64,000 nt of DNA. Origin: Roseiflexus sp. RS-1. GTDB taxonomy: Bacteria; Chloroflexota; Chloroflexia; Chloroflexales; Roseiflexaceae. Both the position numbers and the translations under genes were made by a program. The DNA lies in assembly GCF_000016665.1 (NCBI RefSeq), contig NC_009523.1, positions 1,736,001-1,800,000 on the forward strand, given 5' to 3'. Positions 23,513 to 51,835 of the stretch are shown piece by piece; position 1 is the first letter of the stretch; every line of letters starts with the position of its first letter. Under the pieces are notes generated by a model. It searched no databases. It saw only the letters and a list, made by a program, of their open reading frames with translations, and was not told where the DNA came from.

Positions 23513-23971
23513 ATGAGGTTTGTGTTTGATACCAGCGTTCTCATTGCTTATCTCCGAGGTGAAGCGGAAGCTGCTGACGCTGTAGTCGTAGCTTCCAATT
23601 GTGGTGGTATTCTTGTCTCCCAGATCAGTCTCATGGAACTTTATAGCTCTCAAAACCGACGCAATGCTGATATCGATAGAGAAGTGAGGAGCATTCATGC
23701 GTTAGAGCAAGCATACGGTCTTCGTCTCGTTCCTTGCTCTGAAACCGCTCAGAAATGGGCTTTCAAGATTATGAAGGCATTCCGTTCTCCTTTAGGAAGA
23801 AATGCTTTACCTGATGCCCTTATCATCGGGACGGGTATTGCTTATCGGGGGTGGTTGGTCACTTCTGACGGACACTGGGCACAGATCGCACAGGACAACG
23901 AGCAACGCCAGTTGCTCACTATCAGGCTCAAAGTGCTATCGCCATCAGAGCTTGTACGGAGGTTTGGATAA
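23513..23971 (+). CDS. PIN-domain (VapC-like) ribonuclease
   Basis: A 152-residue PIN protein. Acidic residues expected for the metal site are seen in FVFDTSVLIAYL (first Asp), SLMELYSS (Glu), LPDALIIGTGI (Asp) and LVTSDGHW (Asp). This is the VapC toxin/RNase fold. Its position, tightly packed between effector-complex genes and CARF genes, suggests it was recruited into the CRISPR operon; there is no typical VapB upstream, only an unrecognised 104-residue protein. Its stop overlaps the next start by one base. Confidence 0.85.
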   Translation: MRFVFDTSVLIAYLRGEAEAADAVVVASNCGGILVSQISLMELYSSQNRRNADIDREVRSIHALEQAYGLRLVPCSETAQKWAFKIMKAFRSPLGRNALPDALIIGTGIAYRGWLVTSDGHWAQIAQDNEQRQLLTIRLKVLSPSELVRRFG

Positions 23972-24978
23972 TGTCTAAGAAACTACTCATTGCAACGCTG
24001 GGCACTGCTCCAGCAGTGGTGACCGAGGCCGTGGACTTGCTGACCCAACAGAACTGCCGACCGGACGGTGTCATCTTGCTCAGAACCGAAGACCATGATG
24101 TTCGCGAAGCCTATGAGTTGCTGGCAACTCATCTCCCTCAACACGACAACTTGACCTGGGTGGAGCCTGTATCCATCGGCCAGTACGGAGACGTGGATAC
24201 CCCTGAGGCGGCCGTAGAGTTTATGCAGGAGACATGCCGCATTCTGAAGACCTACCGCGATGCAGGCTACCGACTTTTCGTGAGCATTGCTGGCGGCCGC
24301 AAAGCGATGTCGGCGCTTCTGGCCCTGGCCGTGCAGTTCTACGGCGCCGAACGGCTGTTTCACATCTGGGTGCCGCCGTGGTTGGAGGCGGAGGGCGAGA
24401 TTGCCCAATTCCGCAATCTCCCGGAAGAAGATCTCATCCAGAAGCTACATCCGCCTCTGAATACGATGACTCCGGAGGACCGCCCACGCCTGGTAGACCT
24501 GCCTTTCATCGGCCTCTTCCCGTGGCTGGAAGATATCCGGGATGCACTGAAAGGTGTAGTTTCCCCTGAACGCTCCTTAAAGACTCTGTTGCAAGCCAAT
24601 AATTTGTTGGACTCTCAGGCAAGGCCTACCAAGCTGGGAACTGCCGTTTTGACTATTCTGGAAGGCGTGGAGGGGTTACCCCCAGCACGTCAGGAAGAGT
24701 GCAAAATTGCTATCGCCAAACATCACGACCGCGATCGCCTGGAGCGCTTTGCGCGGGAACTCTGTAGCCGCTTTCCCTTTATCACTCAGACTCAAAGCGG
24801 CGAGTGGCGCTCCGGTGAGGCGAAGGTCAAGGCGGAGTCACCCAATCGCCTAAGGGTTTTTGAGTCTTTGGGCAAGGATTTTCAGATGCAACTGATCCTG
24901 GAAACGACGGCCACCACCTCTGGCCAACTGGAAGCTGCCAGACGAGCCGTAGAGCGCTACCTGGAGCGAAGGAGGTAG
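23971..24978 (+). CDS. CARF protein, Csx14-like ring nuclease/effector
   Basis: A 335-residue protein. The N-terminus LLIATLGTAPAVVTEAVDLL and the motif VSIAGGRKAMSALLALAVQF (about 104-123) define the CARF fold of the NE0113/Csx14 family. Such proteins bind cyclic oligoadenylate and several act as ring nucleases that switch the signal off. The C-terminal half (about 200-335) is basic and helical with no HEPN RxxxxH motif that I can see. Role here: sensing or clearing cOA made by Cas10. Confidence 0.8.
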   Translation: MSKKLLIATLGTAPAVVTEAVDLLTQQNCRPDGVILLRTEDHDVREAYELLATHLPQHDNLTWVEPVSIGQYGDVDTPEAAVEFMQETCRILKTYRDAGYRLFVSIAGGRKAMSALLALAVQFYGAERLFHIWVPPWLEAEGEIAQFRNLPEEDLIQKLHPPLNTMTPEDRPRLVDLPFIGLFPWLEDIRDALKGVVSPERSLKTLLQANNLLDSQARPTKLGTAVLTILEGVEGLPPARQEECKIAIAKHHDRDRLERFARELCSRFPFITQTQSGEWRSGEAKVKAESPNRLRVFESLGKDFQMQLILETTATTSGQLEAARRAVERYLERRR

Positions 24979-24999
24979 AGCATAGGTGCCTACCACCTC

Positions 25000-25956
25000 A
25001 TGGGCCTGGGCCGCTCCCCAGGCACCGTCATCGGGCTACTGACCTACCTGGCCCACCGTTATAACCGCTGGAACGCCGATGACCGGCGCTTCTTCGCCCG
25101 CTCCGGCGAAGTCCGCCAGCGCCGGGCCGGCGAGAGGGTCGGCGATGTGCAGGCGCTGGTCCTGTTCACCACGCTGGAGGTGCTGAGCGGCGAGGCCAAG
25201 GCCTTTGACTATGTGAATAACCCGCCGGGCGAAATCGCAACGGGTCCCCAACAGTCCGGAAGGCCGATGAAAGAGGTCCTGCGCGAATTGTTGCGCCGCG
25301 AATGGCCGGCCATCAGTGGCGGGCGAAAGAAGGGCGCCATCTTCTGTTGCAGAGTAGACCGCCGTGACATCAGTACCACCTACGAGCGGGTGGTCCGCGT
25401 CGTCGCCGCCCTGGCCAGCGTGGGCGGGCAGGGCAAGGAGATGTGGGCCAACCTGACCGGCGGCAATAATGTGATCAATCTGGCGCTGGAATTAGCTGCC
25501 ACTCTTTCCGGTGATATAGCCCGTCTCTACTACGTCCAGGCCGAGAACGAGGCTGCCGAAAAGTGCGTGCGCTACACCGCCGAGAACAGCTACTGGGTGG
25601 ACCTGCCGGTGATGCCCCTGGCGTTAGGCCGACTTCGTCAGACCATCATTCAGGTTCTGAATGACAATGGTCCAATTTCGCTGGAAGACCTGTACAGTTA
25701 CCTGCAAAATAAGTACTGGGACTTGAGCCGGGGGCTGACCTCAAAAGAGACACTCCGCAATGAGTATCTGGCCCCATTGTGGAAGCAAGGCCTCATTGCC
25801 GAGGCAGAAGGCGGCTATGTCGTCGGTCCGCAATGGGAGCTGATCCGACCTTACCAGGAGCTTTTGCAGAAAGCGCGAGATGTCACATTGACCATCGAGA
25901 AGCTAGCCGAGGAGAACAAGGATTGGTTGGAAAAAGAAGAGGTGTCGTGGAACTGA
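25000..25956 (+). CDS. CARF protein with C-terminal winged-helix domain
   Basis: A 318-residue protein. The CARF core includes MWANLTGGNNVINLALELAA and a beta strand IARLYYVQAE. A C-terminal region of about 100 residues (TIIQVLNDNGPISLEDLYSY, YLAPLWKQGLIAEAEGGYVV) looks like a winged helix, as in Csa3-type regulators. Translation may start earlier: in frame, IGAYHL precedes the ATG and AGGAGG sits seven bases before the ATA codon at 24982. That would imply a mutated or non-standard start. Likely a cOA-responsive regulator. Confidence 0.75.
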   Translation: MGLGRSPGTVIGLLTYLAHRYNRWNADDRRFFARSGEVRQRRAGERVGDVQALVLFTTLEVLSGEAKAFDYVNNPPGEIATGPQQSGRPMKEVLRELLRREWPAISGGRKKGAIFCCRVDRRDISTTYERVVRVVAALASVGGQGKEMWANLTGGNNVINLALELAATLSGDIARLYYVQAENEAAEKCVRYTAENSYWVDLPVMPLALGRLRQTIIQVLNDNGPISLEDLYSYLQNKYWDLSRGLTSKETLRNEYLAPLWKQGLIAEAEGGYVVGPQWELIRPYQELLQKARDVTLTIEKLAEENKDWLEKEEVSWN

Positions 25957-25988
25957 ATGGCTCTTCTCACCAATCCCCAGGAGATTCG

Positions 25989-26894
25989 ATGATGACAACC
26001 CTCATCCAGCTTATCGGTGCGCAGCCGCTGCCGAACCTGTTACCATGGCTGCATCTTAAACCCGATCAGACAATGCTGATCTACACACCACAAACCGATC
26101 AGGTCAGACAGCGCATTGAGTCAGTTATTGGCCAGTGTCACTCAATCCGGTGTGATGCCTACGATATTGAGAGTCTGGTCAAGGCGCTTGATGCAGAGCT
26201 GGCAAGTCAGCAGAACTCTGACCTTATTTTTAACCTTACTGGCGGTACCAAAGCGATGGTGCTGGCGGCAAATCAGGTAGCAATGAAGCGTGGTGCACTG
26301 GTTGTTTATCTTGAGAGTGAGCGCACTCAGAACGTTCTTTATGAGTACCGTTACGATAACCAGCAAAAGTTGCGTTTGCAAGGGAAAACCCTTTTACCAG
26401 AGCTTATTACCATCGAACAATTTCTTGATGCCCACATCGGCAAGGGGCAATGGCAGGAGGCAGGTCCCTCGAAAGATATTGGCGGTGCCTTTGAACAGGC
26501 GGTTGCCGATGCGATACGGGCCAGACTGTCGCAGGCTGAGGTAAAACAAGGGATCAAGTTCCTGGGAAGTGATAGGCGACCACAGGTAGATCTGGACATT
26601 GTTGTGCGCTGTGGTAATCAATTTGCCCGTATTGAGTGCAAATCACAAGGAAAGACAACCACGCTGGATGCGGCGAAGCAATTGAACCTGGTGAGCGAGC
26701 TGCTCGGCACGTATACGCGAAAGTTCATCGCTCTGAGTAATGACCCGAACCCCGAACATCAAGCAGTTTATGAGGCAACACGCACAACGGTGATCGTATT
26801 GAGCAGCTTTAGCGATACAAACCTGTCTGACAACGATCAGCAGAACTTGGCTAAAACTATCGCGCAGGCTATTGGATGTACTTTGGGGGAGTGA
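25989..26894 (+). CDS. Can2/Card1-like CARF PD-(D/E)xK nuclease
   Basis: A 301-residue protein. The CARF domain carries FNLTGGTKAM (81-90), the ligand-binding loop of the DUF1887 group. The C-terminal nuclease has the PD-(D/E)xK set: GGAFEQ with Glu169, QVDLDIVV with Asp201 and IECK with Glu216 and Lys218. Relatives (Can2, Card1) are activated by cyclic tetra-adenylate to nick or cut DNA and RNA. AGGAG precedes the ATG. This is the most clear-cut effector of the module. Confidence 0.88.
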   Translation: MMTTLIQLIGAQPLPNLLPWLHLKPDQTMLIYTPQTDQVRQRIESVIGQCHSIRCDAYDIESLVKALDAELASQQNSDLIFNLTGGTKAMVLAANQVAMKRGALVVYLESERTQNVLYEYRYDNQQKLRLQGKTLLPELITIEQFLDAHIGKGQWQEAGPSKDIGGAFEQAVADAIRARLSQAEVKQGIKFLGSDRRPQVDLDIVVRCGNQFARIECKSQGKTTTLDAAKQLNLVSELLGTYTRKFIALSNDPNPEHQAVYEATRTTVIVLSSFSDTNLSDNDQQNLAKTIAQAIGCTLGE

Positions 26895-26945: not shown

Positions 26946-28121
<1,176 letters not shown>

Positions 28122-28128
28122 CTTACGA

Positions 28129-28362
28129 GTGCTGGCAAATAATCGCAATGCTTTGCTGCTGGCGAAGGTGGCAGCGTTGCTGCATGATGTGGGGAAATTC
28201 TGCAATTTGCATATTGAAGCACATACGATAGGCAGATCACGAAAGTGGTCAAATGATCATGCCTATAATGCGATAATAGATAGTCCGATTACTGTTATTC
28301 ATCTGAGCAATGCGGCGGCAAAGTTGAAGAAGCCTGATTCTCTAGACTTCATCAAGGTTTAA
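28129..28362 (+). pseudogene. Fragment of an HD-domain protein (Cas10/Csx11-like)
   Basis: A frame of 77 residues with LLLAKVAALLHDVGKFCNLH, the HD motif seen at the N-terminus of Cas10 and Csx11 proteins, then NDHAYNAIIDSPITVIH. It ends at 28362, where repeat sequence follows. The domain is far too short to be complete. It starts at GTG eight bases after the HEPN stop. Reading: the remaining N-terminus of a second type III large subunit. A stand-alone small HD protein is less likely. Confidence 0.6.
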
Positions 28363-28389
28363 TAGTAATACTATTTTCATAAACTAAAA

Positions 28390-28760
28390 TAATGAGGATT
28401 GGAGCATTAAATCCGCTATGCGCCTCGTACCGTCGGGCTAATGGAGATTAAGAATATAAACCGGTATTCGCCCTTGCCGTGGGGCTGAAGCCCTCGGCTA
28501 TACGGGGCAAAGCCCGCCTGCGCGGGCTAGAGCCGAATAATTACCCAAAGACCATAAGCCCTCGGCTATGCAAGGCGAAGCCCGCCTGCGCGGGGTATAC
28601 CGGATTATTTCTTCAAAGACCATAATTTCGGTCTACACTCCGCCCTGGGAATGGCGCGCCCCACGCGATAACCGAAATACATTTCGGTCTACACTCCGCT
28701 GGAAGCGGGCATCTCGCGCGAAACGGCAGGCTCAGACAGGGGTCAACGTATCTGAGAAAT
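28390..28760. repeat. Nested family A and family B repeats
   Basis: A complete family A copy (28441-28555, TGG...CCA flanked by TAA on both sides) sits within another family A copy whose halves are 28390-28440 and 28556-28623. Right of that lies a partial family B (28624-28760) with two ATTTCGGTCTACACTCCGC blocks. No gene is seen between 28363 and 28942. Confidence 0.75.
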
Positions 28761-28955
28761 AACGCCCAACGTTCACCGCCCAACGTTCACCGCCCAACCT
28801 TCACCCTTCACCGCCCAACGCCCAACCTTCACCCTTCAACTCACCGCTCACCGCTCCCCAGCACGCCAGCACACAACGCCCACCGCCCACCGCCCAACCT
28901 TCAACCTTCAACCCTCAACCTTCAACCTTCAACCCTCAACCTTCAACCTTCACCC
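28761..28955. repeat. Imperfect short tandem array (CGCCCAACGTTCAC / CCTTCAA type)
   Basis: Degenerate units such as CGCCCAACGTTCAC and CAACCTTCAACC repeat without a strict period, running into the 3' end of trpD. The same sequence style reappears at 33506-34281 on the other side of the trp operon. Confidence 0.8.
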
Positions 28956-29968
28956 CCCCGGCTGACCGTGATCAGCCGCTCCAGGCGTGCCAGAGCTGCG
29001 CCGCTCTCCAGGCTGTGGCGCGCCTGGTGCAGTCCGTCGCGCAGGTCGGCGGCGCGGTCGGCGGCAACCAGGGCGGCGGCGGCGTTCAACAGCGCGACAT
29101 CACGTCGCGCGCTCTGATCCTCGCCGGAAAGAATGCCGCGCACGATGGCGACATTGACGGACACATCACCGCCGCGCAGCGCTTCGCGCGGGGCGGGAGC
29201 AAGCCCCAGATCGGCGGCAGTGACTTCGTAGCGTCGCGGCGTGTGACCGGCGCGCACGTCGATCACCAGGTTCGGTCCGCTGAGCGTCAGTTCGTCGAGA
29301 CCACCATGCCCGTGGATGACCAGCGCGTGCTGTGTGCCGAGCAGGTGCAGTGCCCGTGCCATCTTTTCCGCCAGCGCCGGGTCGGCGACGCCGAGCACCT
29401 GGTGGCGCGCATGCGCCGGATTGCTCAGCGGTCCGAGAATGTTGAATACAGTGCGGATGCCGATCTCGCGGCGCACCGGACCAACGAAGCGCATCGCAGG
29501 GTGAAACTTTTGTGCGAACATAAAGCCGATGCCCGCCTGATCCAGACAGCGCGCCACACTGGCGGCGTCCAGTTCGATGTTGACCCCCAGCCCTTCGAGA
29601 ACGTCGGCGGAACCGCAGACACTCGACATAGCGCGGTTGCCGTGTTTGGCGACAATCGCGCCTGCGCCGGCGGCGATGAAGGCGGCGGTCGTCGAGATGT
29701 TGAATGTTCCGGCGCCGTCGCCGCCGGTGCCGCATGTGTCGAGCAGCGGCGCGTCGAAGTGAACTGGAATAGCTTTAGCCCGCATCACGCGCGCCATACC
29801 GGCAATTTCGGCGTCGGTTTCGCCCTTCAGGTGGAGCGCCGTGAGCAGCGCCGCAACCTGCGCTGGCGTCGCCATGCCGGTCATGATTTCTTCCATCGCT
29901 TCGGCAGCCTGGTCTTCGCTGAGATCGTGGCCCCGAACGATCTGAATGATCTGATCACGGATTGGCAT
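28943..29968 (-). CDS. trpD: Anthranilate phosphoribosyltransferase
   Basis: Transfers phosphoribosyl from PRPP to anthranilate, step 2 of tryptophan synthesis. About 341 residues. Seen: the N-terminal helical domain, DTCGTGGDGAGTFNIST (PRPP-binding GTGGD), KHGNRAMSS and NILGPLSNP, with GHGGLDELTL. ATG at 29968 with AGGAG upstream gives MPIRDQIIQIV; a longer start at 30001 lies further inside the preceding gene. It overlaps the ATP-grasp gene by 14 bases, so it is the last gene of a trpE-G-X-D operon. Confidence 0.96.
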   Translation of the reverse strand: MPIRDQIIQIVRGHDLSEDQAAEAMEEIMTGMATPAQVAALLTALHLKGETDAEIAGMARVMRAKAIPVHFDAPLLDTCGTGGDGAGTFNISTTAAFIAAGAGAIVAKHGNRAMSSVCGSADVLEGLGVNIELDAASVARCLDQAGIGFMFAQKFHPAMRFVGPVRREIGIRTVFNILGPLSNPAHARHQVLGVADPALAEKMARALHLLGTQHALVIHGHGGLDELTLSGPNLVIDVRAGHTPRRYEVTAADLGLAPAPREALRGGDVSVNVAIVRGILSGEDQSARRDVALLNAAAALVAADRAADLRDGLHQARHSLESGAALARLERLITVSRGGEG

Positions 29969-31379
29969 CGAGAGACTCCTGTTTCTGTCCGGGTTCGACA
30001 AGAAATGTCGGCAGCACCGGGCTGCTGCCGGTCGAACTGTCTGGTGTTGCAGTGACGATGCGCGTCAGGCATCCCGACGCGCGGTCACCGTAGAGGCATG
30101 GACTTGAATTGACATAATAAATACCAGAGGTCAACCCCTCGTCGTCCGACCAGATCGGGTAGTGTTCTTCCGGTGCCGGTATGCGCTCCTGGAGGATAGA
30201 CGGCTCTTCGAGTGCGCGTTCGAGCGCTCCTTCCCAGTCGAGCGGCGCTGTTTCCCAACCAAAGATGACCTCTGCGTTGCCATACGCATCGTTCGGTTTG
30301 AGTGCCAGGCGTTCGCGGTGGCGACGGGCAAAGTCGAGCAGATCGACCCGTTCCCCCTGGTAGCGGGTGGTCTCTCGACGCACCAGCCGCGTCCACGGCA
30401 CGTGGCGCGCTACCGCCATCGCTGACCCGGCGTCGAGGATGCCGCCTGCCGGTCCTTCATCGTCGGAGAGCAGCCACATGATCAGTCTGGTATGTGCTGG
30501 TCTGGTGCGGAACGGGTTGACGATGCAGACCACCCGATCGGCGTAGGCGCGGATCAGCGGGTGGTGCAGGTCGTACATGGCAAGGAATTCGTGCTGCAAC
30601 AGACGGCGGTAGACCAGATCGACCGGTCGCCATGATGCCCCGCCGTCTGCCAGGCGCGTTTCGACGTACAATCGCCCGCCCTGGTATTGCAGATCATCGG
30701 GAGTGCATACCACGGTCGGGAGACCGTCCGCCTCGAAGCGTTGTTGCAGATGATCGATCTCAGACCATGTCGCTACATCGGGAAAATCGACAATTGCGAC
30801 GGTCGGCGTGCCCCGCCCGCCCCAGGCGCGGTATGCGTCGAGCAGCGTCTGTTGCAACCCCTGACGCACCGGTAGCGCTGTTGCGTGGAAGGTCTCGCGG
30901 AATGCCGCCATGATCCGGGTCTGGTCGAAGAGACCGGCAAGCGCTTCGTCGTAGCCGATCCCGATTGGCGACTCGACATGTGCTTCGGTGAACCAGCACC
31001 ACGCGCCGTTGGGCGCCAGCAAGCCGTCGAGACGCCCGAAAGCCATGGCGCCGGGGTAGCCGGGGTCGATTGCCAGCAATTCGCGTTCGACCGGCGTGAG
31101 ACGGTACGGCGCCAGCAGCGCCGGTTCGGTCAGCGCTGCGGCGCTCACTGCGCGAATGGCGCGCCCGACGAGTGCAGCCGCGTGCAGCAGTGTGTCGTAC
31201 TGGACGCGGGTGATGAACCGCGGGCGCATGACCGGACAGATCGGCTGGTCGCGCTGCGGACCGACCAGCATGCCGCGTTCGCGCATCCCTGCGTCGAGAA
31301 CAGCGAATGTGTCGCGCGCCAGCGCTTCGTCGAGCAAACTGTGGTAGTGCGCGATGATACCGTCGAGGTCGGTCGTCAT
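29955..31379 (-). CDS. Circularly permuted ATP-grasp-like enzyme in the trp operon
   Basis: A 474-residue protein. The C-terminal LALKPNDAYGNAEVIFGWE and SILQERIPAPEEHYPIW match the ATP-binding part of circularly permuted ATP-grasp proteins (glutathionylspermidine synthase-like). VDLVYRRLLQHEFL and VCIVNPFRTRP fit the same family. These enzymes usually make an amide or peptide bond using ATP. It sits tightly between trpG (1-base gap) and trpD (14-base overlap), so it is co-expressed with tryptophan genes, yet it has no known role in that pathway. Substrate is unknown. Confidence 0.72.
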   Translation of the reverse strand: MTTDLDGIIAHYHSLLDEALARDTFAVLDAGMRERGMLVGPQRDQPICPVMRPRFITRVQYDTLLHAAALVGRAIRAVSAAALTEPALLAPYRLTPVERELLAIDPGYPGAMAFGRLDGLLAPNGAWCWFTEAHVESPIGIGYDEALAGLFDQTRIMAAFRETFHATALPVRQGLQQTLLDAYRAWGGRGTPTVAIVDFPDVATWSEIDHLQQRFEADGLPTVVCTPDDLQYQGGRLYVETRLADGGASWRPVDLVYRRLLQHEFLAMYDLHHPLIRAYADRVVCIVNPFRTRPAHTRLIMWLLSDDEGPAGGILDAGSAMAVARHVPWTRLVRRETTRYQGERVDLLDFARRHRERLALKPNDAYGNAEVIFGWETAPLDWEGALERALEEPSILQERIPAPEEHYPIWSDDEGLTSGIYYVNSSPCLYGDRASGCLTRIVTATPDSSTGSSPVLPTFLVEPGQKQESLDANP

Positions 31380-31380
31380 C

Positions 31381-31947
31381 TCAACGTCCTGTCAGAAAGT
31401 TGCGCAGCAACTCCTTCCCTGCCTCGGTCATGATCGACTCGGGGTGGAATTGCACGCCCTGCACCGGATAATCGCGGTGGCGCAGCCCCATGATCAACCC
31501 GTCGTCCGTCCAGGCAGTGATGCTCAGGCAGGCAGGCAGGTCGTCGCGGCGCACAATGAGCGAATGGTAGCGCGTCGCCAGGAACGGATCGGGGAGACCG
31601 GTGAACACCCCCTGACCGTTGTGGTGAATGGCGGAAAGTTTCCCGTGCATCACCTTCGGCGCGCGCACGACGGCGCCGCCATACGCCGCGCCGATTGCCT
31701 GGTGCCCCAGACAGACGCCAAGGATGGGAATGGTTGCGCCGAGTTCACGAATGAGGGCGACACTGATGCCAGCCTCGTTCGGGGTGCATGGTCCGGGTGA
31801 AATGACGATCTTCTCCGGTGCGAGCGCCGCCACATCACCGACGGTCAGTTCATCGTTGCGCCTGACGATCACCTGCGCTCCCAGTTCGCTCAGGTACTGG
31901 TAGAGATTGTAGGTGAAGGAGTCATAGTTGTCGAGGAGGAGTATCAT
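31381..31947 (-). CDS. trpG: Anthranilate synthase glutamine amidotransferase subunit
   Basis: A 188-residue class I glutamine amidotransferase supplying ammonia to TrpE. Motifs: [40 protein letters not shown] with the nucleophile Cys, RYHSLIV and [12 protein letters not shown] with catalytic His and Glu. It may also serve 4-amino-4-deoxychorismate synthase (PabA), as in many bacteria. Its start overlaps the trpE stop by four bases. Confidence 0.95.
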
Positions 31948-33488
31948 ACTTCGCCCTCCGCTGCATCAATGGCGCGCAGGAGCGCCGCCGCCTTATTGCA
32001 ACTTTCCTCGTACTCGGCTGCCGGGTCGCTGTCCGCCACCACGCCGCCGCCCGCCTGCACATAGGCGATCCCATCCTTGACGACCATGGTGCGCAGCGCG
32101 ATGCAGGTGTCGAGGTCGCCGTTGAAGCCGACGTAACCGACGGCGCCAGCATAGACGCCGCGCTGCTCACCTTCGAGTTCGGCAATGATCTCCATAGCGC
32201 GGATCTTCGGTGCACCGCTGACGGTTCCGGCGGGAAACACCGCCCGCAGCGCGTCGAGCGCCGTCATATCGCTGCGCAGTTTGCCCGTCACGTGGCTCAC
32301 CAGGTGCATGACATGGCTGAACTTTTCAACCTCCATAAATGAGGATACACGCACCGTCCCCGGTTCCGACACGCGCCCCAGGTCGTTGCGTCCCAGATCG
32401 ACGAGCATCAGATGCTCGGCGCGCTCCTTTTCGTCTGCCAGCAATTCCTGCGCCAGGCGCGCGTCCTCTTCGGGGTCTTTGCCGCGGCGGCGCGTGCCCG
32501 CAATCGGATGGGTGGTGACGACTCCTTCCTCGACGCGCACCAGCAATTCCGGCGATGCGCCGACCAGGTCGCCTTCGGGGGTGTGGAGGTAGAACATATA
32601 CGGCGATGGGTTGATCGTCCGCAGGGCGCGGTAGATGGCGAAGGGATGCACACGCACCGGGCGACTGAAGCGTTGCGATGGCACGACCTGAAAGATGTCG
32701 CCAGCTGCGATGTACTCCTTGGCGATCTCGACTCGTCGCATGTACTCATCGCGGGTGACGTTCGATGCGACGGCGACCGGCTCAGGTGCATCGGGGGGCC
32801 AGGGATCGTAGTTTGCCACGAAAGAAAACGTATGATCCGGCATCTCGCGCCCTGATGCCGGAAGCGCCTGATTATGGATCGGCAGCGGTTGTCGCAGGCG
32901 CTCGATCAACGCCTCGATCCGCGTCGCGGCGCGTCGGTACGCCCCTTCGAGATCCGGATCGTCCAGATGCACGTGGGTCAGCACCTTGATCTTATGGCGC
33001 AGATGGTCGAACACCAGCAACGTATCGACGAATTGCCACAACCCTTCGGGCATGGCATACCCGCGTTTCTCCGGGCGCGGCAGGCGCTCGAAGGCGCAGA
33101 CCGTCTCATAACTGAAGTACCCGACCGCGCCGCCGACGAAGCGCGGCAGGTCGGGCAGGCGCACCGGACGGTAGGCGCTCAGGTAGGAGTGCAGCACCCG
33201 GAGCGGATCAGTGTAGGGCAACGTCTGCTTGTACCCGCCCTGCACCGCGCTGGCGATCCCCTGATCGAACCGCAGCGTCAGGTATGGTTCTGCGCCGATA
33301 AACGAGTAGCGCGCAATATGCTGCCCGCCCTCAACTGACTCAAGCAGAAAACTCCACGGTTCACGCGCCACCTTGAGGAATGCCGACACCGGCGTCTCCA
33401 GGTCGGCAAGCACTTCAGCGTAGATCGGGCACAGGTTGCCCTGACCGACCAGTGCGCGCATATCGCTCAGCGATGGGGTCAGTTTCAT
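31944..33488 (-). CDS. trpE: Anthranilate synthase component I
   Basis: Converts chorismate to anthranilate with TrpG. About 514 residues. [19 protein letters not shown] carries the LLES tryptophan feedback site. The chorismate-binding core shows [47 protein letters not shown] and [18 protein letters not shown]. The ATG at 33488 with GAGAAGGGA upstream is preferred over one eight codons earlier. First gene of the operon; the upstream side is a 14-bp tandem array rather than a recognisable T-box or attenuator. Confidence 0.96.
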
Positions 33489-33505
33489 ATCGTGTCCCTT
33501 CTCGG

Positions 33506-33788
33506 AGTTCAACGTTCAACGTTCCAGGTTCGACGTTCAACGTTCAACGTTCCAGGTTCAATGTTTCAGGTTCAACGTTCCAGGTTCAACGTTCCAGGTT
33601 CGATGTTCCAGGTTCAACGTTCCAGGTTCAACGTTCCAGGTTCGATGTTCCAGGTTCAACGTTCCAGGTTCAACGTTCCAGGTTCAACGTTCCAGGTTCA
33701 ACGTTCCAGGTTCAACGTTCCAGGTTCAACGTTTCAGGTTCAACGTTCCAGGTTCAACGTTCCAGGTTCAACGTTCCAGGTTCAACGT
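33506..33788. repeat. 14-bp minisatellite upstream of trpE
   Basis: About 20 tandem copies of GTTCAACGTTCCAG with scattered variants (CGACG, CGATG, TTTCAG). The array starts about 18 bp upstream of the trpE start codon. Because 42 bp is three units, open frames across it read as 14-residue protein repeats; these are artefacts. Each unit contains the palindrome AACGTT. Confidence 0.95.
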
Positions 33789-33970
33789 GCAACGTGCAAC
33801 GAGCAACGCTTCAACGTGCAACGTGCAACGTGCAACGAGCAACGCTTCAACGTGCAACGTGCAACGTGCAACGAGCAACGCTTCAACGTGCAACGTGCAA
33901 CGTGCAACGAGCAACGCTTCAACGTGCAACGTGCAACGTGCAACGAGCAACGCTTCAACGTGCAACGTTC
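33773..33970. repeat. 36-bp tandem array adjoining the 14-bp array
   Basis: A higher-order repeat: CTTCAACG, then GTGCAACG steps and GAGCAACG, with strict 36-bp period. The CTTCAAC block recurs at 33809, 33845, 33881, 33917 and 33953. There are no unique spacers, so this is not a CRISPR array. Confidence 0.92.
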
Positions 33971-34001
33971 CAACGTTCCAACGTTCTAACGTTCAACGTT
34001 T

Positions 34002-34117
34002 ATGGAGATTGAGAATTTAATCCGGTATGCGCCTCGTGCCGTCGGGCTGAAGCCCTCGGCTAGGCAAGGCGAAGCCCGCCTGCGCGGGCTGTAGCGGAAT
34101 AATTACTCAAAGACCAT
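34002..34117 (+). repeat. Family A MITE-like repeat, complete
   Basis: A full element bounded by TGGAGATTGAGAATTTAATC and its imperfect inverse ending GGAATAATTACTCAAAGACC A, with TTA on both outer sides (a TNA-type duplication). It is inserted within the CAACGTTC repeat tract between trpE and trpS. Confidence 0.85.
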
Positions 34118-34281
34118 TAACGTTCAACGCCCTAACGTTCCAACGTTCAACGTTCCAACGTTCAACGTGCAACCCCCAACGTGCAACGTGCAACCCCCAA
34201 CGTGCAACGTGCAACGTGCAACCTTCAACCTTCAACCTTCAACCTTCAACCCTCAACCTTCAACCTTCAACCTTCAACCCC
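34118..34281. repeat. Degenerate CAACGTTC / CCTTCAA tandem tract
   Basis: Continuation of the array after the family A insertion: CAACGTTC units, then CAACGTGCAACCCC units, then CCTTCAA units up to the trpS stop codon. Together with 33489-34001 it fills the whole 793-bp gap between trpS and trpE; no gene is seen there. Confidence 0.9.
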
Positions 34282-35289
34282 TCAGATAAACTTCAACCCC
34301 ATCGCTTCTTTCATGCGGTTGAGCGTCTCATCGGCTTCAACGCGCGCGCGGGCAGAACCGGCAGCCAGGATTTCCTCGACGATGCGCGGATTGCGTTCGT
34401 ACTGCGCGCGTCGCTCGCGGATCGGCTCAAGGAACGCATTGATTGCAGCGGCGAGTTTACGTTTGACCTCAACATCGCCGACTTTCCCCTGACGATAGCG
34501 TTCTTTCAGGTCATTCACCTCGTCCACATTCGGATTGAAGGCGTCGTGGTAGATGAAGACCGGGTTCCCTTCGACCCTGCCGGGAACATCGGCGCGCACA
34601 CGGTTCGGATCGGTGTACATCCGACGCACCTTCTCTTCAACCGTTCGGGCGTCGTCGCTCAGGTAGATGGCGTTATCCAGGCTCTTCGACATTTTTGCCT
34701 GACCATCGATCCCCACCAGCGTCGGCACATCGCCGATCAGCGTTTCGGGTTCGGGCAGCACCTCGCCATACAGCGTATTGAAGCGGCGTGCAATTTCGCG
34801 CGTCACCTCCAGGTGCGACGCCTGATCCTTGCCGACCGGCACCAGATCGGCGCGCACACAGAGGATGTCGGCGGCCATGAGCACCGGATACCCCAGCAAC
34901 CCATACGACGGCTGTTCGATGTGCAAATCCTGCATCACCTCCTTCAGCGTCGGCACACGTTGCAGGCGCGGCACGGTCGTCAGCATGCCGAAGATCAGCG
35001 CAATTTCGCTGATTGCCGGCACCATCGATTGCAAAAAGTAGGTCGATTTCTCCGGGTCGATCCCGACGCTCAGATTATCGAGCACCACATGGCGAATGTT
35101 CTCGCCGGTCTGCCGCAACCGCTCAAGTTCGGTGCGGGTGGTGAGCATATGCAGGTCGGCGACCAGGAAGAAGCACTCATACTCATCCTGCAACCGCACC
35201 CGGTTCGCCAGCGTGCCGACATAGTGCCCCAGGTGCATGCGCCCGGTTGGGCGGTCGCCGGTCAGAATACGTTTTTTGGGTTGATTCAT
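34282..35289 (-). CDS. trpS: Tryptophanyl-tRNA synthetase
   Basis: Charges tRNA-Trp. About 335 residues of the class Ic type. [17 protein letters not shown] contains the HIGH-like motif, and [14 protein letters not shown] the KMSKS loop; [11 protein letters not shown] is also characteristic. ATG at 35289 with GGAG upstream gives [14 protein letters not shown]. The gene lies on the same strand upstream of the trpE operon but is separated by the repeat tract. Confidence 0.96.
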
Positions 35290-35400
35290 AGCACTCCTCC
35301 ACACGAGTTATGGTATAGTGTTCATCGAAATTGCGTTCATCCGCCCGCGAGTGCTGCACCTGCGGGGGGATTCCGTCAGACAAGCGTCAGATCATCATCT

Positions 35401-37326
35401 ATGCCATTGAAACCACTCTCCCGCCGCGCGGCTCTGTCCGCCGCTGCGACGTTCGCCGCGCTTGCGACGCTCCGTCCGGCTTTTGCGCAGGAAGGTGCGT
35501 CGCTTGCTGCCCGCAAACCGGTTGTTGCCCCGCTGCAACCGGTTGAGGTCGACGTTCGCATCCCCGGCTACACCGGTCCTGCCGCGATTGTTCTGTTCGA
35601 CAACCGCAAGCGATTCGCTGGCGTCGCCGAGGGGCGCGTCGAGAATGGCGTCGGGACATTGATCGCCATTCCACGAGGCGCGTTGGGTGCACAGTGGGCC
35701 GCACTGTTCGCCTCCGGTCAGTTCGTCGCGGCAAATCCGGCGCTCTTCACGCTCGATGCACGCACCGAAATCTGGACCGGGCAGGAACGTTTCGATCGGT
35801 TCGTTCCGAATGCTGCCGCCATCTTCACCGCCGCCACCCTGTCGTACACCATCGGCAATGTTGCCTTTCGCGGCTATCGTTCGCCCGACAGCCCGTTGAT
35901 CTGGTTGCGCGACCACGTGTATGCGCAACGCGGCGCACGCTACTTCGATGTTGACCTCAAAACCGCCTTCGACGACTTCCGGCGCTACCAGCAACCCGAC
36001 GGCAGTTTCCCCGATTTTCTGCCGCGCCCCCCATGGACTGACCGCGCCCTGCGCGTCCCGGTCGAAGCCGATGTCGAATACCTGTATGTTCAGGGCGTCT
36101 ACGAAGCCTGGCAGGCGACCGGTGATGATGGCTGGATGCGTGGCCACCTGGAACCGATGCGGCGCGCCGTCACCTATTCGTTGCAGCATCCGCTGCGCTG
36201 GGACGCCGAACGCGGGCTGATCAGGCGCCCGTTCACCATCGACACCTGGGACTTCGAGTACGGTCCCACGACGATCGACCCGGATACCGGCAAGCCAGCG
36301 CCGCGCCACTGGATCGACGACAGGACGATCTGGGGCGTTTTCCATGGTGACAACACCGGCATGGCGCAGGCGCTGACCATGCTCGCGCGGATGGAAGAGC
36401 GCGTTGGCGATACGAACCTGGCGCGCGTCTGGCGTGATGTCGCCGCTGGTCTGATGCGCAACCTGAACGCGCTGAGCTGGAATGGGCGTTTCTTCCGTCA
36501 CCATGTTCCTGCACAACCCTTCGACATTCCCGGTGTTGATCGGGAACGGCAGTTGAGTCTGTCGAACGCATATGCGCTTAATCGCGGCGTTTTGACCGTG
36601 CAACAGGGTCAGGCGATCATCGACGAATACATCGAGCGTTCCAAAACCATGCGCGCTTTTGCCGAATGGTTCAGCATCGACCCGCCGTTTCCGCCGGGGA
36701 GTTTCGGGCTTGCCGGGCGCAGCGGCGAGTTGCCGGGCGCGTATGTCAATGGTGGCATTATGCCGATCACCGGCGGCGAACTGGCGCGGGGCGCCTTCCG
36801 CTACGGCAACGAAACCTACGGCTTTGCCATTCTGGAGCACTACTGGCTGCGCATGCTCAGTCGCGGGCGCACCTTCCTCTGGTACCATCCCGATGGCGCC
36901 GAGGGCGTCGGCTCTGAGGATACCATCCCGACCGATGCGTGGGGAACGGCAGCGATGTTCACCGCACTGATCGAGGGCGCCGCCGGCATCGAGGATCGGG
37001 GCGTCGCCATGCGCGATGTCATCGTCAGCCCGCGCTGGGGCGCAACCGGTCTGACGCAGGCATACGTGTCGGCGCGCTACCCGGCTGGCGACGGGTATCT
37101 GGCGTATGTCTGGCGGCAGAACCCGCGCAGTATCGACATCGACCTGAGCGGCGCCTTCGACCGCGCGCAGGTGCGGGTGTTGCTGCCGCTCGATGCGCCG
37201 GGCGATGTCGAAGCGCTGGTCAACGGCGCGCCGGTGGCGTCCAGCAGTGAAACCCTGCGCGCAAGCCGGTATGTCATCATCGACGTGGCAGATATGGCAG
37301 TTGTTCAGGTGCAGGTGCGCTGGTGA
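35401..37326 (+). CDS. Tat-exported six-hairpin glycosidase-like protein
   Basis: About 641 residues. The N-terminus has a twin-arginine motif (LSRRAALSAA) and a hydrophobic stretch ending AFA, so Tat export is likely. The rest fits an (alpha/alpha)6-barrel glycosidase: LIWLRDHVYAQRGARYFDVD, QPDGSFPDFLPRPPW, EADVEYLYVQGVYEAW, AYVNGGIMPITGGELARGA and DAWGTAAMFTALIEGAAGI, followed by a small beta domain. The exact family is not clear (GH63/GH15-like clans are similar). The ATG at 35401 is chosen because the signal peptide begins there; upstream in-frame sequence lies antisense to trpS. Divergent from trpS. Confidence 0.75.
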   Translation: MPLKPLSRRAALSAAATFAALATLRPAFAQEGASLAARKPVVAPLQPVEVDVRIPGYTGPAAIVLFDNRKRFAGVAEGRVENGVGTLIAIPRGALGAQWAALFASGQFVAANPALFTLDARTEIWTGQERFDRFVPNAAAIFTAATLSYTIGNVAFRGYRSPDSPLIWLRDHVYAQRGARYFDVDLKTAFDDFRRYQQPDGSFPDFLPRPPWTDRALRVPVEADVEYLYVQGVYEAWQATGDDGWMRGHLEPMRRAVTYSLQHPLRWDAERGLIRRPFTIDTWDFEYGPTTIDPDTGKPAPRHWIDDRTIWGVFHGDNTGMAQALTMLARMEERVGDTNLARVWRDVAAGLMRNLNALSWNGRFFRHHVPAQPFDIPGVDRERQLSLSNAYALNRGVLTVQQGQAIIDEYIERSKTMRAFAEWFSIDPPFPPGSFGLAGRSGELPGAYVNGGIMPITGGELARGAFRYGNETYGFAILEHYWLRMLSRGRTFLWYHPDGAEGVGSEDTIPTDAWGTAAMFTALIEGAAGIEDRGVAMRDVIVSPRWGATGLTQAYVSARYPAGDGYLAYVWRQNPRSIDIDLSGAFDRAQVRVLLPLDAPGDVEALVNGAPVASSSETLRASRYVIIDVADMAVVQVQVRW

Positions 37327-51023: not shown

Positions 51024-51208
51024 ATGGAGATTGAGAATTTAATCCGGTATGCGCCTTGTGCCGTGGGGCGTGACGCCGCTTGTGCGGGCTAATGGAGATT
51101 GAGAATTTATTCCGCTCTACCGCGCTAGCCGTGGGGCTGAAGCCCTCGGCTAGCCAAGGCGAAGCCCGCCTGCGCGGGGCTATACCGGAATAATTATTCA
51201 AAGACCAT
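51024..51208 (+). repeat. Family A element inserted in a partial family A copy
   Basis: The complete element 51092-51208 (TGG...CCA flanked by TAA on both sides) interrupts a family A copy that begins at 51024. It is the same configuration as at 28390-28623: the inner copy enters at the GGGCT/AAGCCC hairpin of the outer one. Confidence 0.8.
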
Positions 51209-51327
51209 AAGCCCTCCCTGAGCGCGTGGAAGCCCCTGTGGGGCTGGCGTTTCAGTCATCCTTCCCTATGCCGGGGAAACCTGGGTTGATCCAGCCCGTA
51301 GGGCTTGTCTGACCTCGGACAGGGCTA

Positions 51328-51835
51328 ATGGAGATTGAGCATTTATAGCAGTTCTCACAAAGGTTGAACCTGTTGGACGAGGTTGAACGCTTCTGGGAAT
51401 TGCGCGCCCCACGCGATGACCGAAATTATGGAGATTGAGAAATAAATCCGGTATACGCCCTTGCCGTGGGGCTAAAGCCCTCGGCTATGGAATGCAAAGC
51501 CCGCCTGCGCGGGCTATGGCGGATTATTTACTCAAAGACCATCATTTCGGTCTACACTCTGCTGGACACGGGCATCTCGTGCGACACGGGAGCCCTGGAC
51601 AGGGGTCAACGTAAGACAGGGGTCAACGTATCTGAGAACTGCTATAAATCCGCTCTACCGCACGAGCCGTGGGGCTCATGGAGATTGAAAATTAAATCCG
51701 CTATACTGCGCTAGCCGTGGGGCTGAAGCCCTCGGCTAACCAGGGCAAAGCCCGCCTGCGCGGGCTATACCGGATTATTTATTCAAAGACCATAAGCCCT
51801 CGGCTATGCGCTGCGAAGCCTGCCTGCGCGTCACG
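51328..51835. repeat. Triple-nested family A and B repeats
   Basis: An outer family A copy (begins 51328, resumes after 51646) is split by a family B element (51344-51646, ends TATAGCAGTTCTCA and TGAGAACTGCTATA). The family B element itself contains a complete family A copy (51428-51542) within its ACCGAAAT/ATTTCGGT palindrome. The outer copy is then interrupted again by a complete family A element at 51678-51793. The whole gap 50873-51916 holds repeats only. Confidence 0.8.

Follow-up and report, generated by a model that had tools for sequence, protein, structure and literature searches.

ATP-dependent ligases of the glutathione synthetase (GSS) and glutathionylspermidine synthetase (GspS) branch that have been characterised use Mg-ATP to phosphorylate a carboxylate, which is then attacked by an amine to form an amide. 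The GSS residues given in PMC2845819 include Lys305 and Lys364 of the human enzyme and Asp130, Glu146, Lys382 and the Mg-associated Glu386 of the yeast enzyme. The fungal enzyme Cp1B, from the E-64 pathway, is reported to couple an amino acid to epoxysuccinate, which is a plain carboxylic acid, and its activity is reported to be lost or reduced when R139, D141, E163 or N165 is replaced by alanine (PMC12568646). Functionally unassigned genes within trp operons have been described as well (PMC2395257, citing Xie and colleagues): the insertions named in that paper fall in the trpB-trpA or the trpF-trpB interval, and a gene of the aminotransferase class lies beside trpE or trpG. The gene that we describe here likewise has no known function and sits amid trp genes, and is hence a variant of an already reported phenomenon; the passages of that paper on such insertions do not mention a ligase between trpG and trpD. 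Our literature search returned no title on this gene or on its arrangement, and the amidoligase review by Iyer and colleagues (2009) may cover the four-gene operon discussed below.

We analysed a window of 64,000 nucleotides from the genome of Roseiflexus sp. RS-1 (here G000; 5,801,598 bases in a single contig). Four genes of the window are central to this work:

31944..33512, minus strand: trpE, anthranilate synthase component I (PF00425 and TIGR00564, both above cut-off; the open reading frame is counted from a TTG, and its first ATG is at about 33488)
31381..31947, minus strand: trpG, anthranilate synthase component II (PF00117 and TIGR00566, both above cut-off)
29955..31379, minus strand: homologue of GSS/GspS-type ATP-grasp ligases, 474 amino acids, labelled CPG (open reading frame, AlphaFold2 model, Foldseek and VIA matches)
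28943..29968, minus strand: trpD, anthranilate phosphoribosyltransferase (PF00591 and TIGR01245, both above cut-off)

The open reading frame of the ligase homologue starts with the ATG at 31379, and its coordinates include the stop codon. A single base separates it from the end of trpG (31381), and the likely trpD start, an ATG at 29968, overlaps its 3' end by 14 bases. The preliminary description of this stretch had the gene locked between trpG and trpD by just this gap and overlap, and the reading frames and the Pfam and NCBIfam identities of the neighbours bear this out in the window. AGGAG stands 7 bases 5' of the trpD ATG, within the last codons of the ligase homologue, and is likely to be the trpD ribosome-binding site. 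We regard the open reading frame as a real gene, since homologues occupy the equivalent place in other genomes and its dN/dS is below 1. Between 28000 and 34500, promoter-like and terminator-like sequences were about as frequent as expected (2 against 1.7 and 6 against 6.0, respectively), and an Rfam scan of 28000-36500 for RNA regulators returned three palindromic-repeat matches (CRISPR-DR28, one under cut-off) and one sub-threshold miRNA match. A class I tRNA synthetase of the W/Y family, probably trpS, is encoded at 34282-35304, which lies upstream of trpE and shares its strand.

Searched on its own, the window protein has no Pfam or NCBIfam match at E ≤ 1 and no match to PDB sequences at E ≤ 10, and it does not reach the curated cut-off of PF14403 (CP_ATPgrasp_2). 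Among four relatives scanned with PF14403, one passes (L131, 37.0 against 32 bits), and L031, L083 and L142 lie under the cut-off with 30.7, 29.3 and 23.8 bits; the same model finds two matches in the window's own genome, the window gene not being one of them. However, a profile built from 81 rows retrieves 3n6x, a putative glutathionylspermidine synthase, from the PDB with an E-value of 4.9e-13. The AlphaFold2 model of the window protein (pLDDT 93.4, pTM 0.92) matches human glutathione synthetase (E 1.9e-16) and Cp1B (E 1.6e-14) in Foldseek, and its VIA Z scores are 29.9 with YgiC, 28.1 with GspS, 27.6 with human GSS, 25.0 with Cp1B and 24.6 with 3n6x, the structural match to the GSS/GspS branch spanning nearly the whole chain. 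Judged by the overall fold of this model, the window protein is an ATP-grasp homologue of the glutathione synthetase / glutathionylspermidine synthetase branch. The term "ATP-grasp-like", used of the protein earlier, was right; the identity comes from the fold model and the relatives rather than from database matches of the window protein itself.

The arrangement is not peculiar to one strain. Ligase homologues lie between trpG and trpD in four genomes (G000, G001, G002 and G009) and beside trpD in a fifth (G005), the first two, G002 and G005 being Roseiflexus and G009 (locus L082) representing one sister genus; the adjacency of the G005 copy to trpG is likely but indirect, since trpG is on one contig and the ligase homologue on another, and the kind of repeat that closes the trpG contig opens the other. 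A trpD match was found in 54 of 60 genomes, and at the 30 trpD loci that we fetched the ligase homologue is immediately upstream in 5 and absent from that place in 25. All five genomes of the two genera that have a trpD match carry it next to trpD, so that it holds a conserved position in this lineage as a component of the trp operon. Two further genomes are uninformative, because the G003 contig stops within trpG and the G004 search gave neither a close trpE nor any trpD match. The possibility, raised in the preliminary description, of a chance insertion confined to this strain is ruled out, since the same place is occupied in two genera.

The tight spacing, by contrast with the position, varies. 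In G001 the gap to trpG is again 1 base, but the protein ends before the trpD start. In G002 about 186 bp with palindromic repeats separate trpG from the ligase homologue, and the 14-base overlap with trpD is retained. The overlap with trpD is present in G005 too, and in G009 about 31 bp precede the ligase homologue and about 119 bp separate it from trpD.

In a tree of 82 rows, for which the relatives were the best 80 of at least 573 confirmed stretches, an eight-sequence clade is split off by a branch with 100/100 support. It comprises the five trp-linked rows, which form one group (support 100/99), and L083 (Kouleothrix), L084 and L085, from three Chloroflexales genomes; trpE, trpG, trpD and the partners of the four-gene set described below are all absent from the stretches examined around these three. 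The clade is therefore not dependent on trp linkage. In G006, G011 and G048, three of the 25 genomes without the ligase homologue upstream of trpD, trpG directly precedes trpD. Because of these three relatives the simplest history, as read from the sequences, is probably a single insertion into an existing trpG-trpD pair in the common ancestor of Roseiflexus and the sister genus.

The wider family has other company. The window genome encodes a paralogue (G000:C1:3241621-3243009) with 46% identity to the window protein, in a four-gene set that runs in the order esterase (PF00756), second ATP-grasp protein (a weak RimK match, E 0.062, under cut-off), ligase paralogue and GCS2 (PF04107, 1.7e-63). 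This set lies at about 3240479-3244781 of the contig (6480-10782 of L031), and relatives of it are found at loci L086-L158. The 73 operon-type loci among the best 80 of at least 573 confirmed stretches come, apart from a few records with other labels, from Chloroflexota, Gemmatimonadota and Acidobacteriota, and their ligases share 33-43% identity with the window protein (alignment A3). The paralogue and these relatives are, like the window gene, full-length homologues, but they differ from it in that GCS2, the second ATP-grasp protein and the esterase adjoin most of the loci and in that the motifs changed in the window copy are intact. The second ATP-grasp gene is present at at least 66 of the 73 loci, GCS2 at at least 49 and the esterase at at least 32, all lower bounds since some contigs are short; trpE, trpG or trpD was near the ligase at none of the 73.

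Ligase and GCS2 also co-occur where they are unlinked, as in several Chloroflexaceae. Across 60 genomes, the window's own included, a full GCS2 match was present in 35 of the 36 with an operon-type ligase and in none of the 24 without; this count leaves out remnants in G001 and G005, a weak partial ligase match in G012 and a partial GCS2 match in G051, which has no ligase and whose GCS2 match is over the cut-off but covers 109 of 291 positions. Across the phylum, the family profile matched 123 of 400 genomes, and many of the matches are short and weak and are probably other ATP-grasp proteins. BshC, of bacillithiol synthesis, was found in none of the 60 genomes. The four-gene set is a candidate for making a gamma-glutamyl or thiol metabolite, given that a novel thiol has been reported from Chloroflexus aurantiacus (PMC6336425). 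The set, conserved in Chloroflexota and other phyla as an amide-ligase operon, is a side result of this work.

These observations bear on the function proposed in the preliminary description, the conjugation of anthranilate or tryptophan. A ligase acting on anthranilate, chorismate or tryptophan and co-expressed with anthranilate synthase would account for a gene closely packed on the same strand in the trp operon and conserved there in two genera. However, members of its clade (L083, L084, L085) are found away from trp loci, the partners of its family are of another kind (GCS2, a second ATP-grasp protein, an esterase), and the window strain carries substitutions at metal- and ATP-binding residues, as set out below. 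We consider such an activity very unlikely. What holds of the preliminary description is a conserved ATP-grasp ligase homologue in the trp operon; conjugation of any of the three compounds finds no support.

We compared the window copy with the family residue by residue; the conservation rows are the best 80 of at least 573 confirmed stretches, so the counts apply to the nearest relatives, and roles were assigned by motif, spacing and HMMER alignments, coordinates not being superposed. The segments compared are:

30978..30986, minus strand: codons 132-134, the E-x-N motif, here E-A-H (N134H)
30486..30488, minus strand: codon 298, equated with the first phosphate-binding lysine, here Arg
30270..30299, minus strand: codons 361-370, a lysine, acidic residue 365 and the glycine-rich loop, here KPNDAYGNAE (E365A, G368N, G370E)
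30018..30044, minus strand: codons 446-454, the alanine-rich loop, here PDSSTGSSP, mostly LNVTAGGGS in relatives

Residue 134 is Asn in all 73 operon-type rows, among the best 80 of at least 573, and in the seven other rows of the window gene's own clade. Residue 298, which aligns with a lysine of 3n6x and was equated with human GSS Lys305, is Lys in the same 73 rows and in G002, G005, G009, G014, MAG66 and OHK40, and Arg in G000 and G001. The segment 361-370 reads KPND(E/D)YGG-x-G in relatives. Its residue 365, four after the conserved K361 and so at the same spacing as yeast GSS Lys382 and Glu386, is Glu in 47 and Asp in 26 of the 73 operon-type rows (again among the best 80 of at least 573) and Glu or Asp in G009, G014, MAG66 and OHK40, but Ser in G002 and G005 and Ala in G000 and G001; the glycine-rich loop is GNAE in G000 (G368N, G370E) and GGAE in G001. 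In the alanine-rich loop G000 has N447D, V448S and G453S, and the loop of G002 and G005 is shorter by one residue. R116, D118, E132, K361, D364, Q397 and R440 are unchanged in G000. Measured against what an active ligase of the GSS/GspS type is expected to have, the window copy retains R116, D118 and E132 of the R-x-D and E-x-N motifs with His for N134, has one (K361) of the two phosphate-binding lysines with Arg for K298, has Ala where the acidic Mg ligand would stand, four positions past the second lysine, and lacks the family form of the glycine-rich and alanine-rich loops.

The differences are graded across the lineage. At the 45 columns that are invariant in the 73 operon-type rows (among the best 80 of at least 573), G000 differs at 11, G001 at 8, G002 and G005 at 2 each, and G009, G014, MAG66 and OHK40 at 1 each; at the 76 columns conserved to at least 95% in the best 80 of at least 573, the differences are 24 in G000, 21 in G001, 11 in each of G002 and G005, 10 in G009, 9 in G014 and 8 each in MAG66 and OHK40. 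K297T is common to the whole clade, trp-linked and stand-alone, and is the only change at an invariant column in the sister-genus copy (G009). A sequencing error behind the changed residues is unlikely, since K298R, E365A, G370E, D424N, N447D and G453S recur in the separately assembled G001; N134H, K293R and G368N are seen in the G000 assembly only. We also considered a compensated frameshift through the alanine-rich loop; the DNA alignment, judged by eye, has in-frame codon changes instead.

The window protein resembles E. coli GspS, YgiC and YjfC and 3n6x in fold (Z 24.6-29.9), and the R-x-D and E-x-N motifs of its family align with YjfC and the E-x-N motif with 3n6x; it differs from all four in sharing only 13-16% identity, in having E-x-H and altered loops, and in lacking an amidase domain. 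Eukaryotic-type glutathione synthetase and Cp1B are also alike in fold (Z about 25-28), but the window copy is changed at the residues equated with the catalytic Asn, Lys and acidic ligand and in the loops. We know of no pathway common to the window gene and these two enzymes.

Could the protein nevertheless remain an amide ligase on the original substrate of the family, with altered metal binding and with some redundancy between it and the GCS2-operon paralogue? Many active-site residues are retained, and the copies in G009, G014, MAG66 and OHK40 appear intact. However, G000 combines changes at the Asn of E-x-N, at the first Lys, at acidic residue 365 and in both loops. Two Roseiflexus relatives, G001 and G005, have each lost the greater part of both the operon-type ligase and GCS2 through deletions (L185 11995-14806 and L186 1979-4397), with remnants left and with the esterase and second ATP-grasp genes still present, and a search of both genomes found no GCS2 match. 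The breakpoints on the ligase side differ (about residues 211 and 126) and those on the GCS2 side are close (about residues 277 and 275); deletion would have been independent in the two, since G000 and G002, the tree neighbours closest to them, retain both genes. Despite these losses both genomes keep the trp-operon copy, which also counts against continued activity alongside the paralogue. We judge continued activity of this kind decidedly unlikely.

We estimated selection on the gene with trpD and trpE as controls. The pairwise NG86 dN/dS between G000 and G001 is 0.31 for the ligase homologue against 0.08-0.12 for trpE, trpG and trpD; trpE was excluded from the pairwise comparisons with G005 and G009, where only 4 codons aligned. 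In a home-made codon model, omega of the ligase homologue is 0.296 on the G000 and G001 tips and 0.097 elsewhere (2dlnL 15.06), whereas trpD is unchanged (0.062 against 0.056, 2dlnL 0.06). For trpE, 2dlnL is 1.99 with six taxa and 4.61 with five (tips 0.094 against 0.040); part of the tip effect may therefore reflect short branches, since trpE rises too in the five-taxon run. The stem of G000 and G001 shows no rise (0.112 against 0.093), and including it in the foreground gives 0.186 against 0.088 (2dlnL 8.9). Omega = 1 is rejected on the G000 and G001 tips (2dlnL 20.5-20.6) and on those of G002 and G005 (omega 0.102, 2dlnL 136); thus the copies are still constrained. Constraint is relaxed in the window's lineage but has not vanished, and the Roseiflexus copies that lack acidic residue 365 in G002 and G005 remain well conserved under strong purifying selection.

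We favour, with some confidence and with appreciable doubt, the explanation that the window gene is carried along in the trp operon as a catalytically dead passenger under relaxing selection, the trpD start region giving its frame partial protection. The tree and the gene context show a clade of Chloroflexota amide ligases of the GSS/GspS type that diverged from the operon-type family, occurs by itself in three Chloroflexales genomes and, on the simplest account, moved a single time into the trpE-trpG-trpD cluster, in an ancestor shared by Roseiflexus and the sister genus. In the sequences, the acidic residue at lysine+4 is gone from all four Roseiflexus copies, the G000/G001 lineage has gone on to change the first lysine and the loops covering ATP, and G000 alone has changed N134, K293 and G368 as well. 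On this explanation the window protein would no longer make an acyl-phosphate. Early stops in the ligase homologue would be expected to weaken trpD translation, and the frame may be partly kept open because the ribosome-binding site and start of trpD lie within the 3' end of the gene. Coupling to trpD is not the whole explanation, since in G001 the protein ends short of the trpD start and in G009 the two genes are 119 bp apart. Also against the dead-passenger explanation, the copies are still constrained and the G000/G001 stem shows no rise in omega; the retention of R116, D118, E132, K361, D364, Q397 and R440, too, would argue against it.

The main rival is a domesticated pseudoenzyme, which would have lost its chemistry in the Roseiflexus ancestor but kept some task in tryptophan synthesis that needs no catalysis, such as nucleotide sensing or the binding of TrpG, TrpE or TrpD. 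Such a role fits the position next to trpD in five of five genomes of two genera with a trpD match, and it fits an omega of 0.10 in G002 and G005, even with Ser at 365, together with the rejection of omega = 1 in G000 and G001. It sits less well with the relaxed selection in the window's lineage and with the variable spacing to trpG and trpD, which includes inserted repeats in G002 and G005. We think domestication unlikely, though well worth keeping in mind. Its more specific form, in which the ligase, once captured by the trp operon, shed its metal-binding chemistry in the Roseiflexus ancestor and persisted in a non-catalytic capacity, with anthranilate synthase or TrpD as its partner or as the target of its allosteric sensing, is a shade less likely again.

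On the favoured dead-passenger explanation, the locus would offer a graded series in which a ligase enters a core biosynthetic operon and loses its active site stepwise, from the intact copy of the sister genus, through Roseiflexus copies without acidic residue 365, to the window's lineage, in which most contacts to ATP are gone. It would also serve as a warning that operon position alone is unsafe for inferring a substrate.

Several other features of the region deserve mention. A palindromic repeat, AAGCCCGCCTGCGCGGGCT, occurs at 51-69, 28488-28625, 34068-34091 and 51162-51766, and also at 3639-3824 of L080 and 1-394 of L081; the window holds 7 copies with at most 2 mismatches, against 0 in shuffled sequence, and Rfam labels three of them CRISPR-DR28. 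It looks like a dispersed repeat, since units similar to it stand in series between trpG and the ligase homologue in G002 and G005. Arrays of a repeat of about 7 bases (GTTCAAC type) flank the trp genes at 33507-34278, between the probable trpS and trpE, and at 28761-28956. CARF-type CRISPR ancillary genes lie at 23971-26894 (Cas_NE0113 at 23971-24978, and a Card1-type CARF protein ending at 26894), and 27386-28121 encodes a nucleotidyltransferase and HEPN pair that resembles a toxin-antitoxin system.
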